Assembly (NCBI GenBank): GCA_949841465.1
Contig: CATKZW010000004.1
Coordinates: 1-64,000, forward strand
Reading direction: 5' to 3'
Origin: an uncultured Oscillospiraceae bacterium
Lineage (GTDB): Bacteria > Bacillota > Clostridia > Oscillospirales > Oscillospiraceae
Length of the DNA stretch: 64,000 nucleotides
Part shown: piece by piece, positions 1 to 7,968 of the stretch
Layout of the letters: each line of letters begins with the position of its first letter
Position numbering within the stretch: the first letter of the stretch is position 1
Notes under the pieces: generated by a model
The model's database searches: none
What the model saw: only the letters and a program-made list of their open reading frames with translations
Told to the model about the DNA's origin: nothing
Made by a program: the position numbers and the translations under genes

Positions 1-145
1 CGTGGGGGGTGACCGGCTTGTTCGTAATTTTGACACTCAAACTTCGATATTTCAATCCACGCCCCCGCGTGGGGGGTGACGGTATTCCCCGTTATTCAAG
101 CTTTGTGGGAGGGATTTCAATCCACGCCCCCGCGTGGGGGGTGAC
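1..145 (-). CRISPR. Type I-C CRISPR array, leader-proximal end (truncated by window edge)
   Basis: Two complete 32-bp repeats lie at 49-80 and 114-145, and a partial third at 1-13. Read on the minus strand each begins GTCACC and ends CGTGGATTGAAAT, the typical type I-C repeat end. Spacers are 35 bp (14-48) and 33 bp (81-113). Positions 5-9 and 15-19 of the repeat can form a CCCCC/GGGGG hairpin with loop CACGC, the expected Cas5c cleavage substrate. The array lies downstream of cas2 in the same direction, as is usual for I-C. Its distal part is outside the window. Neither spacer has an obvious match inside this window. Confidence 0.97.
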
Positions 146-314: not shown

Positions 315-608
315 CTAAAGCATTAAGACATCTTCCGGAGAATAGGTTGGCTTTGCACCAAAATGCTCAATTTTATTCTCATACCGGTTTCCCAAATAGT
401 AAAATCGTAGGCTGTCCTTCTCCGGGTCCATTATCTTGCATAGTTTTGCCTGCAGACTGCGGCACTGAGCTGCGTCCAGCAGACATTCAAAGACAGAGTT
501 CTGAACGCGCTGCCCATAGTTCACGCATTGCTTTGCAATCTGCCGCAGGCGTTTTCGGCCGGCAGCGTCCTCGGTATTCACGTCGTAAGTAATTAAAACC
601 AGCATCAT
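315..608 (-). CDS. cas2: CRISPR-associated endonuclease Cas2
   Basis: A 97-residue protein that dimerises and bridges Cas1 dimers in the spacer-integration complex. The start MMLVLITYDV followed by a ferredoxin-like fold pattern and the C-terminal region around YLGNRYENKIEHFG are typical of the I-C Cas2 family. The start at 608 is chosen because it lies one base after the cas1 stop codon, within an SD-like GGAAGTGAT context; 605 is an equally possible second ATG. It is the last gene of the cas5-cas8-cas7-cas4-cas1-cas2 operon, directly before the leader. Confidence 0.95.
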   Translation of the reverse strand: MMLVLITYDVNTEDAAGRKRLRQIAKQCVNYGQRVQNSVFECLLDAAQCRSLQAKLCKIMDPEKDSLRFYYLGNRYENKIEHFGAKPTYSPEDVLML

Positions 609-609
609 A

Positions 610-1641
610 TCACTTCCATAAAAAGGGTGGATAGGCATCCAAGTCACCCCGGAGATACCGTGCCAACAGTAGTGCTTGGACATAGGGAATCATCCCCCAC
701 GGAAGCTTTTCCCCCAGATAAGGGTGCGTCAGCATCTCCTTTTTCTTTTCCTGCCAGCTTTTTAGAAATGCTTTCCTGCCGTTATCAGTCAACAGCACTG
801 CGCCGCTCTCCATATATAAAAAGTCCGACGCTTTGACTTGCCGATTGTTAATCAGAGTCAGCACAAACCGGTCGGCCATGCAGGGACGCAGTTCCTCCAT
901 CAAATCCAAGGCCAAAGAGATTCGGCCCGGCCGGTCGCGGTGGAGAAACCCCACATAGGAATCCAGCCCTGCGCTCTCCAGTGCGGAAGCGCAGTCGTGG
1001 GCCAGAAGGCTGTATGAAAAAGAAAGCATGGCGTTGACCGCGTCCAGCGGGGGACGGCGGCTGCGCTGGTGAAAGGAGAAGGCGTCTTTATCCCCAAGGA
1101 TCATCTCATTGAAAACGCCAAAATAAGCGGAAGCACCAACCCCCTCCAGGCCGCGCAGTTCTTCCGGTGAATCCACCTCCTTGACTTGAGATAACAGCCC
1201 ATAGATCTGCTGGGAAGCAGCGGCAAGTCTGTCACTGTCCACCCGCAGCCCATGGTCCCGGCGGGTACGCTCCATGCTCCAGCGAGCATTGAACAATTTG
1301 CCAAAAATCATCGTTCGGCTGATTTGGCAGCACTGGCTTGGGTCGTCCGCAGCGCGATATTGACTCCGGCGAAGCAGGACGTTTCCCCCGCCCTCTCCAC
1401 ATACCCTTGCCAAAAATCTTCCCCGAGGCGTACAAAAGGCAAATCCGATCTGACGCTCCGCGCACGCGCCCATCAGGGCGGGGGAAGCGCCGGAATAAGA
1501 AAAGGTGATGATATTTTGCAGGGTATGCAGTGGGTAGCGTGCCACAGCCTGTTTTTCCCGATTTGCCACGACGTTTTCCCCGTCCAAAGACAGATAAATG
1601 TCCTCTGAGAGAATATAGAGGGTATTGAGCAGATGTTTCAT
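610..1641 (-). CDS. cas1: CRISPR-associated endonuclease Cas1
   Basis: Cas1 integrase, 343 residues, which inserts new spacers with Cas2 and, in type I-C, Cas4. The N-terminal beta domain begins MKHLLNTLYILSEDIYLS, and the helical catalytic domain holds the conserved glutamate region (around GVFNEMILG) and the histidine/aspartate region (LHRDRPGRISLALDLMEELRP). The open frame continues upstream to 1917, but the ATG at 1641 overlaps the cas4 stop by four bases (ATGA). This translational coupling, together with the usual Cas1 N-terminus, fixes the start. Confidence 0.96.
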   Translation of the reverse strand: MKHLLNTLYILSEDIYLSLDGENVVANREKQAVARYPLHTLQNIITFSYSGASPALMGACAERQIGFAFCTPRGRFLARVCGEGGGNVLLRRSQYRAADDPSQCCQISRTMIFGKLFNARWSMERTRRDHGLRVDSDRLAAASQQIYGLLSQVKEVDSPEELRGLEGVGASAYFGVFNEMILGDKDAFSFHQRSRRPPLDAVNAMLSFSYSLLAHDCASALESAGLDSYVGFLHRDRPGRISLALDLMEELRPCMADRFVLTLINNRQVKASDFLYMESGAVLLTDNGRKAFLKSWQEKKKEMLTHPYLGEKLPWGMIPYVQALLLARYLRGDLDAYPPFLWK

Positions 1642-2300
1642 TTCGGTTCCTCCATTGCCGCGGCCAGATAATCGGCGACTTGTTTCCGATTCATCAGCTT
1701 CGGGAGGCATAGTTCCTTCAGAGAACAGGCATTGCAGGCTTTGGATGGCTTGACCTTGGGGGTGCAGCGCCGCTGATACAGCTGGTGCATCTCCGTCAGG
1801 CTGCCCCGGACCTGCTGGCGCAGTTCGGATGTGAACGGGACCACAGTTCGGCGGCGGGGCTCTCCGTAGTAGAGCGCCCCCTCCGGGACAGCACAGCAGA
1901 GCATCTCCTCCAAACACATAGCCTGTGCACAGAGCTGCAGTTCGTCTGCGTTATGCTCTTTGGGCCGGCCCCGCTTGTACTCCACAGGGTACGGGACCCA
2001 ACAGCCTTCTCGGCCCCGCAGAGGGACCCCTGCGGGGTCTTTGCGAAATTCCACTGCGTCACATTGACCGGAGACGCCCAGCTGGGCCGAATGGACGGCC
2101 AGCCCCCGGACGACCAGCAAATCGCCCCGGCTCTCTCGAAAAGCCTGGTCGTGGACATTTTCGTGCATGAGATGACCGTCCACAGTCCGGAAATTCTCGG
2201 CCCACTGGTCTTCGATGTGGATCAACGCCCACTGCCGGCGGCAGAAGGCGAAGTGCTGCAACCCGGAAAGCTGAAGCCAGTTTTCCTCAGACCAGCTCAT
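1638..2300 (-). CDS. cas4: CRISPR-associated exonuclease Cas4
   Basis: A 220-residue Cas4 that trims prespacers and selects PAM-bearing ends for Cas1-Cas2. The iron-sulfur ligands are visible as one N-terminal cysteine (HFAFCRRQW) and a C-terminal cluster (CNACSLKELC). The PD-(D/E)XK nuclease core shows as VEYKRGRP. Its length is normal for the I-C type. It overlaps cas7 by four bases upstream and cas1 by four bases downstream, so it is translationally coupled in the operon. Confidence 0.95.
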   Translation of the reverse strand: MSWSEENWLQLSGLQHFAFCRRQWALIHIEDQWAENFRTVDGHLMHENVHDQAFRESRGDLLVVRGLAVHSAQLGVSGQCDAVEFRKDPAGVPLRGREGCWVPYPVEYKRGRPKEHNADELQLCAQAMCLEEMLCCAVPEGALYYGEPRRRTVVPFTSELRQQVRGSLTEMHQLYQRRCTPKVKPSKACNACSLKELCLPKLMNRKQVADYLAAAMEEPK

Positions 2301-3193
2301 CCCATGCGCCGGCAGGTCACGCCGGCAGGCAGGGAGGCCTCATCCACGGTGACCCGATAATCTCGATAGGAGCGGGCCGGGGCAGGGTCATCCTTGTCCG
2401 CCCGCTCCACCTGCACCAAATCGAAGAGCTTCCAGGCCGGGGCACAGCCGAGCTCAGAGTCATGCTTAAACACGATCAGCTCCCGCACCGCCATCTTGCC
2501 CCGGGCAGCGGAGCGGTCGTTTTCAAACATATTGAGGATTGCCTGCCACAGCAGCTCCAGGTCCTCCTGGTCGAAGCCGGTGGTCTTCCGGGCCAGGTTT
2601 GCGGAGATATAGCCTTCGCAGCGGTAGAGACCATAGGGGATGATGTATTTGCGCCCCATCTCTGTCCCCTTTTTCTCAGCGTCCGCTTCCGTGGTGATGG
2701 CCACGCGGGTGATGGTCACCTCCTGAGGCATCACCGGCTCCACGCTGCGGGCAAAGCCCAGCTGCACCGGGCCCCGGACCTGGCCGCAGTTCAGCGCCGC
2801 CTTGACGAAGGTGGTCATTACAGCGCCAAAGGTGCGGATATCGTAAAAATTGGCGCACATCCAGTCTCGGATCTTTTTGTCTAAATTGGGGTCCGCTTTT
2901 TTCTTTTCCTTCACGTTCTTTTCCGTGAGCTCCAGTTTCTTATAAGCCTCGGCGTCGCTGCAATTGAGGGGCACCCCGTCCTTGATGTAAATGCGGTAGC
3001 CGGTGGCGTTCTCCTTGAGCGTTTCCACATAATTGCGGATTTTCCGCTTCAGGCACACGTCGGTGACCAGGCCCAGACCGGTCTCCGGGTCTACCCGGGG
3101 CATATTGCCCGCGTCGGGGTCTCCGTTGGGATTCCCGTTCTCCACATCGAACAAAACAACAAATTCATAGCGGTTTTTGATGGGTTCAGACAT
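2297..3193 (-). CDS. cas7: Type I-C Cascade backbone subunit Cas7 (Csd2)
   Basis: A 298-residue backbone protein that polymerises along the crRNA spacer. The N-terminal signature YEFVVLFDVENGNPNGDPDAG is diagnostic of the Csd2/Csh2 family. It starts inside the end of cas8c (8-base overlap) and ends in a 4-base overlap with cas4. It is probably made in excess over its neighbours because Cascade needs several copies, but nothing in the sequence shows how. Confidence 0.96.
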   Translation of the reverse strand: MSEPIKNRYEFVVLFDVENGNPNGDPDAGNMPRVDPETGLGLVTDVCLKRKIRNYVETLKENATGYRIYIKDGVPLNCSDAEAYKKLELTEKNVKEKKKADPNLDKKIRDWMCANFYDIRTFGAVMTTFVKAALNCGQVRGPVQLGFARSVEPVMPQEVTITRVAITTEADAEKKGTEMGRKYIIPYGLYRCEGYISANLARKTTGFDQEDLELLWQAILNMFENDRSAARGKMAVRELIVFKHDSELGCAPAWKLFDLVQVERADKDDPAPARSYRDYRVTVDEASLPAGVTCRRMG

Positions 3194-3554
3194 TTTTGTT
3201 CTCCTCCTTTTTCTGATAGCGGACCTGTGTCTGGTGGTAGTAGCCCAGCTGGAATGCCCCCTGCTGGGGCAGATTCATGCGGTCAGGGAATGCTTCGCCT
3301 ATTTTCCCGGTCAGATCGGTCAGCTGTTTGCTGTAGGCAACGGCCAGACCCTTCTCCAACTTCCGCAGGTGCTTCTGGGCCAGATTGATCAGGGCGGGGA
3401 ACACCCGGCTGGGAGTGGATGAGGCTGAGTTGAAATATTTGTCTTTGATGGTGGCGTTGATGCCGGGGTTCGCGGAGGACTGGATGGCCTCCAGCACGGA
3501 GAACAGCCGGCCCAGGCTGTAGGGTACGCTGGTGCTGTCAGGATTCAGGGACAC
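3186..3554 (-). CDS. cas11c: Cas11c small subunit, internal translation product of cas8c
   Basis: Within cas8c, a perfect AAGGAGG (3563-3569) is followed after 8 bases by an in-frame GTG at 3554. This would give a 122-residue protein starting at Cas8c codon 459 (VSLNPDSTSVPYSLGRLF). In characterised type I-C systems the small subunit comes from just such an internal start near this point, and the all-helical C-terminal segment with SLGRLFSVLEAIQ fits. Size, frame, spacing and context agree; expression itself is inferred. Confidence 0.8.
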   Translation of the reverse strand: MSLNPDSTSVPYSLGRLFSVLEAIQSSANPGINATIKDKYFNSASSTPSRVFPALINLAQKHLRKLEKGLAVAYSKQLTDLTGKIGEAFPDRMNLPQQGAFQLGYYHQTQVRYQKKEENKNV

Positions 3555-4928
3555 AGTCAAAACCTCCTTTGGCATATCAGGATGGGGATTTTTCAAATAG
3601 TAGGCTTTTAAAATGGCGGCCCTGCCTCGAGTGACCTCACGCTCGGCCCGGACGCGCAGGCACACGCCGTTGAGAAGGGTGGCGGGATAGCGGGTATCGG
3701 TCAGAACAGCGCGGAGGGTCTCTCCGGCCATCCCAGGCGGTGGTGACTTATCGCGGGAATTTTGATTCACGGTCTCGTCCAGCAGCTTCCAGGGGGGCAG
3801 GGTCTCAAACTTGTCGAAGGCGGGCCTGACGATTTCCAGCCGCTCCTGGTGGGCTTGGACATTCCGCTCAAAACCTCCAAAAGAATTTCTGAGGAAGAAC
3901 CGCACCGACAGCCGGGCGGCGTTGGGCGACAGGCCCAGGATGTAAAAGGTTGTGTCTGGGTCCAGCCGGGTTTCGTCAAACAGGATGGGCTTGCCCTGAC
4001 ACAGGTCAAGGACCATTTTTTGCAGATCGGAGGTGGAGTAGGCGGTTGGTGTGCCAAACAGGCTTGCCACAAAAAAGCTTTGATAGGCGGGGGCTCCGCC
4101 CGACGCCCAGAATAAAACCGTGGTGTCTCCCATTCGCCCCACATACTCCCGGTCTGCCAGCAGGTGGTTCAACGCGCTGGTGTAGGCAAAGGCCGCGTAT
4201 TTGCTGGTGGGGGCGTTGAGGCTCTGCTCGCGGCCGTAGGAGCAGAACGCGTCGGCATTGAAGGAGACCAGCGCCGCGCCGCTGGACTGCGCCCCGGAGA
4301 CCCCCTTAATGGAGGGGTGGACCGTCTCCACCGGCCCTTTTTCCCCAGTGACCAGACACACCAGTTCCGGGCCGTCCCCTGCGGTGTCATAGTGGCGCTG
4401 CCATGCCTTGCGGATCTGGGGATCGTCCTGGGGGAAGCCCCCATCATACCGAAATACCAGGCTGACACCGGACAGGATGTCCTCCAGTTTGTCCGCTAAA
4501 GCGGGGTGCTGCTGGGCCTGGGATGGGTCCCAGTGGTCAAAAAAGGCCAGGACAGCCCGAGCAGCCGAACTGTCCACGCCATCTAAAAGCCGGTGGTGGA
4601 GCGCTTTGCAGTCAAGAAAGCAAGCCAAGCTCCGCTGGGGCTTTCCCTTTTCATCTACACCTAAGATGTAGCTGGAGTTGTCCCACAAAAAGTTGGAGGA
4701 AATACCGCTGGAGCGTTTGACCGGCGCGGGAAGAGACATGTGCCTGGGCACCAGCGCCTTCTTTTTCCCTCGCTCTTCTTCCCGCTTGAGGGATACCGCC
4801 TGCTCCAGCTCTCCGGCGTCGTTGATGTACAGCGCGTAGGAAATGCTGCTGGCGCTCCAGCCGGGGCGGTCCAGCTTACCCTGTGCCGCCAAATCCTCGT
4901 AGTGCTCCACAAGAGCCTGCAGGATCAC
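3186..4928 (-). CDS. cas8c: Type I-C Cascade large subunit Cas8c (Csd1)
   Basis: The 580-residue large subunit, which recognises the PAM and recruits Cas3. It begins MILQALVEHYEDLAAQGK, typical of Csd1, and its length fits the family. The start overlaps the cas5c stop (ATGA). The last 122 codons are preceded by a strong internal Shine-Dalgarno and GTG, indicating that the small subunit Cas11c is made from the same mRNA (listed separately). Confidence 0.95.
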   Translation of the reverse strand: MILQALVEHYEDLAAQGKLDRPGWSASSISYALYINDAGELEQAVSLKREEERGKKKALVPRHMSLPAPVKRSSGISSNFLWDNSSYILGVDEKGKPQRSLACFLDCKALHHRLLDGVDSSAARAVLAFFDHWDPSQAQQHPALADKLEDILSGVSLVFRYDGGFPQDDPQIRKAWQRHYDTAGDGPELVCLVTGEKGPVETVHPSIKGVSGAQSSGAALVSFNADAFCSYGREQSLNAPTSKYAAFAYTSALNHLLADREYVGRMGDTTVLFWASGGAPAYQSFFVASLFGTPTAYSTSDLQKMVLDLCQGKPILFDETRLDPDTTFYILGLSPNAARLSVRFFLRNSFGGFERNVQAHQERLEIVRPAFDKFETLPPWKLLDETVNQNSRDKSPPPGMAGETLRAVLTDTRYPATLLNGVCLRVRAEREVTRGRAAILKAYYLKNPHPDMPKEVLTVSLNPDSTSVPYSLGRLFSVLEAIQSSANPGINATIKDKYFNSASSTPSRVFPALINLAQKHLRKLEKGLAVAYSKQLTDLTGKIGEAFPDRMNLPQQGAFQLGYYHQTQVRYQKKEENKNV

Positions 4929-5587
4929 CCGATCACCTCCCCACTGTCACGTGCCGGAACGGCCAATACACCGTCTTGAAGCACCGCTCGGAAAAAGAGC
5001 GGGACAATATTCTCTGGATTGGAGTAGTCCAGGTCCCAGAGCATATAGCCCAAATCCCGCATCCCTTTCAGCTCCTCCGGGCAAGCGGGGAGGGCTTCGC
5101 AGGCCTTGAAGTGAGCCGGAAATTCCCGGCATCCGAAATAGGGCTGATGATAGAACTGTCCCCGCCTGATCCGGCGTTTGATGATGTCTTGGAATTTCCC
5201 GGCGTTGTCGCCGGCCGCTGCCTGCTCTGTGAGTTCAAAGTGGGCGTCGATGACATAATGCACGTCTCGCAGCAGCATGGCAGCCCGCTGCTGGATATCC
5301 TGAGAGGCGGCGATGTACAACTCGCCGGTTCCCCGTTCCATCACCGTCCGGGCCAAACGGGCGCTGGCGGTAGACTTCACCTCGTTGCGCCGCAGGTTGG
5401 TGAAGCAGATGGGTGCGCAGACGTGGATGCGATCAATGACCCAGCGCATACCGGGATGCCAGTATAGGCTCTCCAGCAGCCCCCGGGCGGCGGAGGGAGT
5501 CATAATATCATAGCTTACCCGTTCGGTTTTGAGCTCCGGTCGAGTAAAGCAGGCATAATCTCCCCACACTTCCAAAGAAACTGGCAC
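4925..5587 (-). CDS. cas5c: Type I-C Cas5c (Cas5d), crRNA-processing nuclease and Cascade subunit
   Basis: A 220-residue RAMP protein. In type I-C, which lacks Cas6, Cas5c cuts the repeat hairpin and stays on the 5' handle. The start is GTG at 5587, with AAGGAG eight bases upstream, giving (M)PVSLEVWGDYACFTRPELK, the usual family beginning. An ATG-initiated extension to 5662 is open, but it would begin inside the -35 box of the operon promoter, upstream of the predicted transcript start, so it is rejected. First gene of the six-gene operon; it overlaps cas8c by four bases. Confidence 0.94.
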   Translation of the reverse strand: MPVSLEVWGDYACFTRPELKTERVSYDIMTPSAARGLLESLYWHPGMRWVIDRIHVCAPICFTNLRRNEVKSTASARLARTVMERGTGELYIAASQDIQQRAAMLLRDVHYVIDAHFELTEQAAAGDNAGKFQDIIKRRIRRGQFYHQPYFGCREFPAHFKACEALPACPEELKGMRDLGYMLWDLDYSNPENIVPLFFRAVLQDGVLAVPARDSGEVIG

Positions 5588-5633: not shown

Positions 5634-5662
5634 AGAATACCATTATTTCTCTGGGGTGTCAA
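5634..5662 (-). promoter_or_regulatory. Promoter of the cas5-cas8-cas7-cas4-cas1-cas2 operon
   Basis: On the minus strand a perfect -35 TTGACA (5662-5657), a 17-bp spacer and -10 TATTCT (5639-5634) predict a start near 5627, about 40 bases before the cas5c GTG. The stretch 5684-5667, directly upstream of the -35 box, is the sequence matched by the pseudo-spacer of the repeat-like RNA at 5743-5828. Confidence 0.85.
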
Positions 5663-5687
5663 TAATTAATATTTCTTTACTCATGAA
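5650..5687 (-). promoter_or_regulatory. Predicted Cascade target site (PAM TTC plus protospacer) at the cas5 promoter
   Basis: On the minus strand TTC at 5687-5685 is followed by ATGAGTAAAGAAATATTA (5684-5667). The pseudo-spacer at 5775 reads ATGAGAAAAGAAATATTA: 17 of 18 identical, with the mismatch at position 6. A full 33-35-bp protospacer footprint would extend to about 5650 and cover the -35 box at 5657-5662. TTC is the known type I-C PAM. Homology then breaks off, which should allow binding without full R-loop formation and cleavage. Confidence 0.85.
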
Positions 5688-5708
5688 GTTTTATATACAT
5701 TTCAAATG

Positions 5709-5736
5709 TTGAAATTAAAAAAACTTGTGATATAAT
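5709..5736 (+). promoter_or_regulatory. Promoter of the repeat-like guide RNA
   Basis: TTGAAA (5709-5714), a 16-bp spacer and a perfect TATAAT (5731-5736) point rightwards. The predicted start, about seven bases on, is 5743, exactly the first base of the degenerate CRISPR repeat. It diverges from the cas5 promoter, with the target site between the two. Confidence 0.85.
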
Positions 5737-5742
5737 AATATC

Positions 5743-5828
5743 GTCTTTGGCCATGTGCTATCGTGGATTGAAATATGAGAAAAGAAATATTACTGTGCTG
5801 TGGGGCGGCAGGATATCCTGCCGCCCCA
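5743..5828 (+). ncRNA. CreR-like Cas-regulating guide RNA (degenerate repeat plus pseudo-spacer)
   Basis: 5743-5774 is a 32-nt copy of the array repeat in crRNA orientation: 21 of 32 positions agree, including the first three (GTC) and the whole 3' CGTGGATTGAAAT that contains the 11-nt crRNA 5' handle. The array hairpin is conserved in register with changed bases: UGGC/GCUA pairs around loop CAUGU where the array has CCCCC/GGGGG around CACGC. A 26-nt pseudo-spacer follows (5775-5800), then a 28-bp palindrome that can end the transcript. The pseudo-spacer matches the cas5 promoter region beside a TTC PAM. I infer that Cascade loaded with this RNA represses the cas operon. No second repeat and no toxin-like ORF accompany it, so CreR fits better than a CreTA module. 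Confidence 0.85.
5801..5828. terminator. 28-bp perfect palindrome between cas3 and the guide RNA
   Basis: TGGGGCGGCAGGAT and its exact complement form a 14-bp stem. It ends 7 bp before the cas3 stop codon (minus strand) and directly follows the pseudo-spacer (plus strand). A bidirectional terminator is likely, although neither side has a long U-tract immediately after the stem. It also separates cas3 from the cas5 operon. Confidence 0.7.
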
Positions 5829-5835
5829 TCCATAC

Positions 5836-7968
5836 TCAAATAAATAATCCTTTTCCACCATCCGCCGTCAGCGACAGCCCTGTATCTTCGGCATACAGCG
5901 CGAGATTGGTCAAAATCGCAGACCCGTCCTCCAACACCTCCAGGTCCCCGGCCATGTCCAGCGCCTCGAAATGCTGCGGATAGATCGATACGCCATACTG
6001 GCCCAGCGCCCGGAAGAGCGCCCTGCTGCGCTCACCGGATCGGAGCCGCTGTATCAGCTCAGCCCCCGCCTCCAAGGGAATGTATACCGTTCTGGTCTCG
6101 CTGTCGATCAGACGGAACCGTTCCGCAATTTTCCGGAACGGCATCAGCTCCTTTTTCATCAGGGTGAGGATGTTCTTTTGATCCAAGGCCGCTGGACCTT
6201 TCAGACCCAGCAATTCCTGGAAATAACGCCGGATCGTATCCGGGCTGTCTGGCTGGGCACAGCGATTCAACGCCTCACGCCCAGCCGCTATGGGGATCTC
6301 AAGCAGAGACGGCGGGGCGGCCTCACTCTGGAATATGGTGACAACGCTCTCCTCAAGGGGGCGCTTTCCCTCCCGGTTGCACCGGCCCGCGGCCTGAAGA
6401 ATAGAATCCAGCCCTGCCTCTTCCCGAAAGACCGTTGGAAAATCCACATCCACTCCGGCCTCGATCAGTGAGGTGGATACCACCCGGCAGGGCAGGCCGT
6501 CCTTCAGCCGTGCCCGGATCTCTGCCAGCGCCGCCTTGCGGTGGGCAGGATACATCAGGGTGGATAGATGAAACGCCCCCTCTTCATCCAGAAGTGCATA
6601 GATTGCCTGAGCGCTTTTGCGGCTGTTTACAATACACAGCGTCTGTCTTTGCGCCCTAAGCTGCTGTGCCAGCGCCTCTTGAGACAGCTTCCCCTCCCGC
6701 CGAAAAGTGTTCCGCTGGAATACCTCTTGGCAGAATTCTGTTTTAGGGCAGATCTCAGGAATAGTTTGATCTGGCAGGAATTCCCTGAACATTCCATCCA
6801 GGGCGGGCTGGGTGGCGGTGCACAATATGGCGGAGGCCCCGTAACGCTTCACCAACTGCGAGATGGCAAACACACAGGGACGGAGATAGGGCACAGGCAG
6901 CATCTGCGCCTCGTCAAAAATGATTACGCTCTGGGCCAGGTTGTGCAGCTTGCGGCACTGTGAAGAACGATTTGCATAAAGAGATTCAAAAAACTGCACC
7001 GCTGTAGTTACCACAACGGGCATATCCCAGTTCTCTGTAGCCCGAGCCAGCCTGGCATTCTCCGGCCTGGCCTCGTCCTCAATGTCATACAGGGCTCCGG
7101 AGTGGTGCTCCAATACATTTTCATCACCCAAAATATCCCGAAAAACCTGGGCATTTTGTTCAATGATGGAGGTATAAGGGATCACATAGACCACCCGGCG
7201 CAGTCCGTGGGCACGGGCATGGCGCAGGGCAAAGGCCAAAGACGCCACGGTCTTGCCCCCGCCAGTGGGGATGGTCAGGGTAAACAACCCCGGAGCCTGG
7301 GTCTCGCCCTGCTCCAGACAGCGCTGCAGCACCGCGCACCGCTGCCGGTTCAGCTCAGTTTTGGGCGGGAACCAGCCGGAGATGTGGACCCGGAGCCGAT
7401 CCTCCAGCACTTCGAGTCCGTCTCTCCCGCCCCGCTCCTGGGCCGCCCCCGCCATAAAGGTTTCTGTATCCAGGAAGTCCGCGTCTACCAGGCAGGAGTA
7501 GAGCATCCGGGTAAAAAACATTTCTTCCATCGGATCAGCGAATGTGGGCAGGGGGGTCGGGGCCAGCTTGATTTCCTGCCGCCACGCCTCATAGGGCGCC
7601 AGTTTTCCTAAAACGGCTTTCTTCATGCGGCCGCAAAATGTGCTGTCTTCCCAGTGGTCTCCTTGTCCTCCTCCGTCAGGCAGGCCGCCATGGTGCCCTG
7701 CCACAGCAAAAGCGGTGCAGACCTGCCCCAGTTTGCCGCATTCTGCCGCCCCGGCGGTGGCATGATCCACCTGCTCCGTACTTCCTCGCAGCCGGCGTTG
7801 GAAAGCATCCGAGTACTTTCCTAAATCGTGTGCCAGACCGGCAAGCCTCCCTTGCCCCTCCGCGCCAAAAGACGCCGCGAATCCGGCACACAGATTTGCC
7901 GTTCCATTGAGGTGCTCTATGATTGATTGCTCCCGACCATCTTGGGCAGTATGGGCAAGATATGCCAT
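5836..7968 (-). CDS. cas3: Type I-C Cas3 nuclease-helicase
   Basis: A 710-residue effector nuclease recruited by Cascade to degrade target DNA. The N-terminal HD domain shows H19, the H47-D48 pair (LAHDLGKY), H69 and the HH at about 92-93. The SF2 helicase follows, with Walker A TIPTGGGKT near residue 232 and Walker B DEAQ near 351, then the helicase C domain and a Cas3 C-terminal domain. The start at 7968 follows AGAGGA. It has its own upstream region and is separated from cas5 by a palindrome and the opposite-strand guide RNA, so cas3 is not simply the first gene of the Cascade operon. Confidence 0.96.
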   Translation of the reverse strand: MAYLAHTAQDGREQSIIEHLNGTANLCAGFAASFGAEGQGRLAGLAHDLGKYSDAFQRRLRGSTEQVDHATAGAAECGKLGQVCTAFAVAGHHGGLPDGGGQGDHWEDSTFCGRMKKAVLGKLAPYEAWRQEIKLAPTPLPTFADPMEEMFFTRMLYSCLVDADFLDTETFMAGAAQERGGRDGLEVLEDRLRVHISGWFPPKTELNRQRCAVLQRCLEQGETQAPGLFTLTIPTGGGKTVASLAFALRHARAHGLRRVVYVIPYTSIIEQNAQVFRDILGDENVLEHHSGALYDIEDEARPENARLARATENWDMPVVVTTAVQFFESLYANRSSQCRKLHNLAQSVIIFDEAQMLPVPYLRPCVFAISQLVKRYGASAILCTATQPALDGMFREFLPDQTIPEICPKTEFCQEVFQRNTFRREGKLSQEALAQQLRAQRQTLCIVNSRKSAQAIYALLDEEGAFHLSTLMYPAHRKAALAEIRARLKDGLPCRVVSTSLIEAGVDVDFPTVFREEAGLDSILQAAGRCNREGKRPLEESVVTIFQSEAAPPSLLEIPIAAGREALNRCAQPDSPDTIRRYFQELLGLKGPAALDQKNILTLMKKELMPFRKIAERFRLIDSETRTVYIPLEAGAELIQRLRSGERSRALFRALGQYGVSIYPQHFEALDMAGDLEVLEDGSAILTNLALYAEDTGLSLTADGGKGLFI

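Follow-up and report, generated by a model that had tools for sequence, protein, structure and literature searches.

The stretch analysed here, referred to as the window, comprises 64,000 nt from an uncultured Oscillospiraceae bacterium and carries a complete type I-C CRISPR-Cas operon on its minus strand, in the order cas3, a 248-nt gap, cas5c, cas8c, cas7, cas4, cas1, cas2 and the CRISPR array (Table 1). The gap behind cas3 contains a compact unit on the opposite strand, composed of a degenerate CRISPR repeat, a spacer-like stretch and a hairpin, and also the site that the spacer-like stretch matches. A further array stretch, located at the end of a contig (G000:C34:34200-34704, L193), holds six repeats and reads G at repeat position 4, in contrast to A in the window array; it could represent a separate array or the distal end of the window's own.

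Table 1. Features of the type I-C operon and of the cas3-cas5 gap in the window.
Feature	Position	Strand	Remarks
CRISPR array	1..145	-	cut by the contig end
cas2	315..605	-	TIGR01573
cas1	610..1641	-	TIGR03640
cas4	1638..2300	-	TIGR00372
cas7	2297..3193	-	TIGR02589
cas8c	3186..4928	-	TIGR01863
cas5c	4925..5587	-	TIGR01876; GTG start at 5587; first gene of the presumably repressed unit
cas5 promoter, TTGACA-17-TATTCT	5634..5662	-	its -35 TTGACA (5662-5657) lies inside the protospacer
Protospacer, 34-nt footprint	5684-5651	-	guide matches 17 of the first 18 bases (5684-5667)
Target PAM, TTC	5687-5685	-	adjoins the 18-nt match
Candidate guide RNA promoter, TTGAAA-16-TATAAT	5709..5736	+	11/12 consensus bases
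Degenerate CRISPR repeat	5743..5774	+	antisense to the cas operon; 21/32 bases as in the array repeat, including all of the last 13
11-nt handle	5764-5774	+	within the degenerate repeat
Pseudo-spacer	5775..5800	+	positions 1-18 (5775-5792) hold the match
Strong hairpin closing the guide unit	5801..5828	+	between the guide and the cas3 3' end
cas3	5836..7968	-	TIGR01587 and TIGR01596; lies upstream of both guide and targeted promoter

A first-pass annotation of this DNA had proposed that the gap encodes a guide RNA acting like CreR, the cas-regulating RNAs reportedly described by Liu et al. (2023, Cell Host Microbe). The anatomy on which it relied was largely reproduced, namely a TTGAAA-16-TATAAT promoter upstream of the repeat and, by script, a degenerate 32-nt repeat at 5743 whose last 13 nt equal the array repeat. 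Its claim that the repeat hairpin keeps the register did not hold, the minimum-energy fold of the window copy being a different and weak stem (-6 kcal/mol, z = -1.0). The candidate promoter would place the transcript start at 5743; since shuffles of the AT-rich gap average 1.3 promoter-like sites and two were found, the promoter match taken alone says little, and relatives have promoter-like sites at a similar distance from the guide. The closing hairpin, possibly a two-way terminator, has no U-tract, and a terminator scan found none there. One repeat, together with the hairpin, was recognised in the window unit. As in CreR, the degenerate repeat stands outside the array and is linked to cas genes. 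An Rfam search at E values up to 1 returned three matches, all far under the gathering scores, and among 42 genomes of the window's genus the wording of the window guide (two mismatches allowed) was present in the window's genome alone.

The target, too, was confirmed. A match of 17 of 18 bases with its only mismatch at position 6, and the end of homology after position 18, were recovered by script, and both the TTC directly upstream and the coverage of the cas5 -35 TTGACA by a full footprint were found as the annotation had described them. Two further traits of CreR are present, a spacer-like part that partly matches the promoter of its own cas genes and a PAM beside the target, where TTC is taken as the I-C PAM by analogy with the Xanthomonas system. 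Within the gap the target scores 15 and the next-best site 4, and the pattern of PAM plus seed occurs once in the 3.09-Mb assembly (about 93% complete).

Relatives were gathered through Cas5. GTDB contigs contributed the best 80 of 578 confirmed stretches; further loci came from 99 relatives and from 394 genomes within the order (loci from 30 of 40 matching genomes), and from phylum and family searches (loci from 30 of 103 and 30 of 56 matching genomes). Seven duplicate loci were left out (L001, L002, L024, L025, L106, L122, L133), and L108, L109, L110, L114, L120, L126 and L184 are copies of counted elements. The core survey covered 59 I-C loci with a cas3-cas5 gap of 110-700 nt, searched for a handle-like motif with no target required. 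Among these collected loci the motif lay antisense in 36, corresponding to 31 distinct elements (including the near-copy pair L053/L056 and other related ones), and on the sense strand in 4. An enlarged set, built with a laxer handle and a PAM- and period-aware score, added 10 elements, plus 6 among 53 phylum and family loci (52 oriented; L156 was not orientable); two of these 6 belong to I-C systems whose Cas5 is only about 27-28% identical to that of the window (L143, L152). With near-copy L056 dropped and L059 kept, the enlarged set holds 46 elements, 16 of them found by the PAM- and period-aware score, and only the set of 31 is free of that bias. Gap lengths were called by an ORF rule that probably errs in some loci; the elements of L049 (short-gap, 100 nt) and L055 (124 nt) lie 176 and 216 nt upstream of cas5. 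Several matches in or near arrays (the second rows of L026 and L063, and L057, L064 and L066), and one inside the coding part of an operon (L033), were set aside by position only.

The annotation had suggested checking whether guide and target co-vary in related loci, and this check came out in its favour: a target was present in the element's own gap in 30 of the 31 distinct elements, at scores of 9-16 (28 at 12 or above), even though the wording differs among elements. When pseudo-spacers were compared with the gaps of other loci (930 pairs), 737 pairs scored 4-6, 28 scored at least 9 and 7 at least 12, the last being taken as related pairs. A plain count over 17 positions gave 10-17 matches in own gaps, with 28 of 31 at 14 or more, versus 9-14 for shuffled pseudo-spacers, of which 7 of 620 reached 14. 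The situation that the annotation had named as refuting it, a degenerate repeat that persists after the match is lost, was absent from 30 of the 31 elements and was seen in the remaining one, L059 (copy L114). These two loci carry an antisense repeat-like element and no target in their own gap, and the element is perhaps in decay.

The positions at which the match is kept follow a regular pattern. Counting matches in the 31 elements with one position left out at a time gives 28, 30, 30, 30 and 30 for positions 1-5 and 10 for position 6; 28, 27, 29, 28 and 30 for positions 7-11 and 7 for position 12; 30, 30, 29, 26 and 22 for positions 13-17 and 13 for position 18; and 6, 6, 6, 8, 8 and 10 for positions 19-24. 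The difference between positions 6 and 12 and the other 15 of the first 17 has a Fisher p of 3e-28, a value that treats the elements as independent when some are related. In type I Cascade one base in every six stays unpaired, and the dips at 6, 12 and 18 are what Cascade pairing predicts. With no PAM required in the scoring, the best site lay directly after TTC in 23 of 31 elements and after TTT in 7, trinucleotides that jointly account for about 5% of the DNA searched (enlarged set). For the I-B CreA, pairing is reported as necessary at positions 1-5 and 7-11, with no harm from changes at positions 6 and 12 (PMC8501985). The Xanthomonas I-C system is reported to use a TTC PAM and to require at least 27 matching bases for self-target killing (PMC8406640), and a match of 17-18 nt should therefore bind without being cut. 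The PAM, the 6-nt periodicity, the place by the cas5 promoter and the match length all fit Cascade binding without cleavage, with the no-cutting step as the part that we infer.

A stem of at least 4 pairs ends exactly at the 11-nt handle in 34 of the 46 enlarged-set elements, versus 7-22 when the position is slid by 1-3 nt; in a set of 40 elements such a stem was found in 31, versus 21% of shuffles, and the pair types vary, which is not an independent test of covariation because the stems were chosen for pairing. The window copy is among the elements without a good handle stem. A side observation concerns the wording of the handle, where TAGAAA replaces TTGAAA in L131, L132, L134, L125 and L087. 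Behind the handle, all 46 elements show a hairpin more stable than -12 kcal/mol, at a median distance of 23 nt, with a T-rich tail in 26 (counts without a shuffle control). The type I-C Cascade structure shows Cas5c and one Cas7 subunit clamping the 5' handle (PMC7684278).

How widespread is the arrangement? After merging 117 loci to 107 distinct ones, with loci whose Cas5 is less than 45% identical to that of the window left out, an element with target was found in 40 of 107 I-C loci: 36 of 53 with a gap over 110 nt, 2 of 46 with a short gap and 2 of 8 whose gap length is not known. The other 17 long-gap and 44 short-gap loci had no detected element with target, and none was detected in the near neighbours of the window, L004, L030 and L082. 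One of the two short-gap positives, L049, is probably a wrong gap call. In the other, L063, the element sits at the end of cas3 remote from cas5, about 2.4 kb upstream of the latter, a placement that could put the entire operon under its control; the stretch before cas3 was scanned in the 31 short-gap loci (unmerged) with at least 2.7 kb upstream of cas5. A much looser handle applied to 23 element-less loci (17 long-gap, 6 of unknown gap) gave nothing at a score of 12 or above. Among 18 element-less gaps read by eye, that of L112 showed a promoter-like site and a handle-like stretch, and no clear target was found in it. In L100 the ORF rule leaves 1.6 kb between cas3 and cas5, perhaps an insertion, and no element was found there. 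On a tree of 120 Cas5 proteins, made by a quick method with 56 of 117 inner branches open, the element is patchy: its label changes 31 times, versus a shuffle mean of 35, and 40-48 of 500 shuffles go as low. Because the number of changes is near the shuffle mean, the tree cannot separate gain from loss. Two pattern scans of IMG/VR for phage-borne copies gave 0 and 1 matches; the single match (L196) coincides with the beginning of a coding sequence and lacks a repeat hairpin, and because its BLAST similarity to the window is confined to the 25-base stretch itself, it was rejected.

Considering the anatomy of the unit, a match kept across divergent genomes, the PAM, the 6-nt periodicity and the near-promoter position, we regard it as very probable that the cas3-cas5 gap of this type I-C operon houses a self-contained guide RNA gene of CreR type that represses the Cascade and adaptation genes; the CreR-like autorepression proposed at the outset is thereby supported, with the match kept in 30 of 31 elements as a principal argument. 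From sequence we further infer transcription, processing, binding, repression, a separate cas3 transcript and sensing, in the following scheme. The guide RNA would start at the degenerate repeat and end at the hairpin, and Cas5c would trim it to the usual 11-nt handle. About 15 effective pairs (positions 1-5, 7-11 and 13-17) would then hold guide-loaded Cascade on its target beside the PAM at the cas5 promoter; the match being too short for interference, Cascade would stay there and block RNA polymerase, such that expression of cas5-cas8c-cas7-cas4-cas1-cas2 would be lowered. The upstream cas3 gene would probably be spared: given the hairpin immediately after its stop, cas3 is probably transcribed separately and escapes. 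When crRNAs or anti-CRISPR proteins occupy Cascade, repression would ease.

The guide might instead act mainly on its own promoter, or on both divergent promoters at once, with the guide level held constant and the cas promoter a secondary matter. We consider this unlikely, but several observations speak for it. Placement was analysed in 29 elements (near-copy L056 and the target-less L059 left out), and in 21 of them the protospacer is on the antisense strand, the guide's own, as a rule between the divergent promoters, with the operon sense strand used in the window and 7 others. The guide's own -35 is overlapped by the protospacer in 8 of 29, and the I-B CreA RNA of H. hubeiense is reported to autoregulate the promoter of its own operon. 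The distances, however, favour the cas side: the distance from the target to the best cas-side promoter is at most 18 nt in all 29 elements, versus 58% of random placements, and that to the guide promoter is at most 18 nt in 55%, versus 41%. Overlap with the guide promoter block (24%) is under the random value of 30%, and in the window itself the cas5 -35 falls within the protospacer, with 24 nt separating the protospacer from the guide promoter. Overlap with the cas promoter block is not enriched either (41% versus 40%), so the common factor is proximity to the cas promoter rather than overlap with it; the target is 1-18 nt upstream of the cas -35 in 17 of 29 elements, where the way of blocking is less obvious. 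Perhaps, and this is offered tentatively, a widespread I-C lineage of single-repeat guides controls the Cascade and adaptation genes and not Cas3, and in the many members whose site lies between divergent promoters, one bound Cascade may tune both operon and guide, a feedback in both directions that would sense unoccupied Cascade.

A guide that represses a toxin instead of cas genes, in the manner of the CreTA or CrePA addiction modules, is highly improbable here. CreA does have a like degenerate repeat and partial promoter match, according to PMC8501985, and the distant I-C locus L195 (4411-4650) has a 79-aa ORF between guide and cas5, such that its target promoter might serve another gene. 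In CreTA the target promoter drives a toxin; that of the window reads directly into cas5, its -10 lying about 46 nt before the start with no gene between. It is scarcely credible that the unit is a functionless relic, be it a decayed mini-array or a spacer that came to target its own genome by chance, as its degenerate repeat and patchy occurrence might suggest, because decay would not preserve a match in 30 of 31 differently worded elements with variation mainly at the flipped positions. Antisense pairing of the RNA with the cas5 leader, for which the guide's direction opposite to the operon might be cited, is extremely improbable, since the PAM and the 6-nt pattern are traits of Cascade on DNA and the window guide cannot pair with cas5 mRNA, its matching stretch being cas5 sense-strand sequence upstream of the -35.

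If autorepression of the operon by a Cascade guide is the correct reading, the Cascade level of many Clostridia would be set by a built-in guide that works like a thermostat, and anti-CRISPR proteins or a surge of crRNA would be predicted to switch the operon on. The guide/target pairs would also constitute a natural experiment on Cascade binding without cutting, with pairing at 1-5, 7-11 and 13-16/17 and freedom at 6, 12 and 18, and short I-C guides of like form could become tools for repression. Type I-C ranks among the most common CRISPR subtypes, according to PMC7684278.

Among the matches listed in the open literature there was no report of a type I-C CreR, and the original CreR survey may include I-C. 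A survey of structured RNAs in CRISPR operons lists 34 I-C candidates, one of them upstream of cas3, and the available part of its text does not describe an element of the window type (PMC9067536). According to the parts of two reviews that were available, CreRs act in I-B, I-E and V-A (PMC13131331) or, more loosely placed, in type I and V-A (PMC12737573). The window guide resembles them as a crRNA-like RNA partly complementary to a cas promoter, the reported CreRs autorepressing their own cas genes, and differs in belonging to type I-C. A review calls CreR a mini-CRISPR RNA, and in the window one repeat and a hairpin were seen. The guide is further set apart by its position antisense to the operon and between cas3 and cas5, from which cas3 probably escapes. 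In the CreR scheme of both reviews, abundant crRNAs compete for Cascade and thereby relieve repression, and inhibition by Acr proteins does likewise (PMC13131331, PMC12737573); the first-pass annotation had the opposite direction for crRNAs, with relief when they are few.

The likeness to I-B CreA, in the accessible text of PMC8501985 and PMC9458426, extends to the degenerate repeat, the TTC PAM, pairing at 1-5 and 7-11 and freedom at 6 and 12. A one-repeat CreA is described as well, whose second repeat, its authors suggest, may have disappeared when a terminator arose. CreA differs in repressing a toxin gene, while the targeted promoter of the window has only cas5 behind it, and matching of the I-C guides commonly reaches position 16-17, unlike that of CreA. 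As with the long-form tracrRNA of type II-A, a guide RNA would turn the effector on its own cas operon; there it is Cas9 and a tracrRNA with a 9-bp match that do so, and here it would be Cascade (PMC8730458, from the text available). Finally, Racr RNAs are also solitary repeat units, often located just behind a predicted promoter, with one I-C example (PMC10651486, likewise in part). Racr is phage-borne and inhibits CRISPR immunity, whereas the element described here, rather than being encoded by a phage or mobile element, sits inside a host cas operon with a conserved target.
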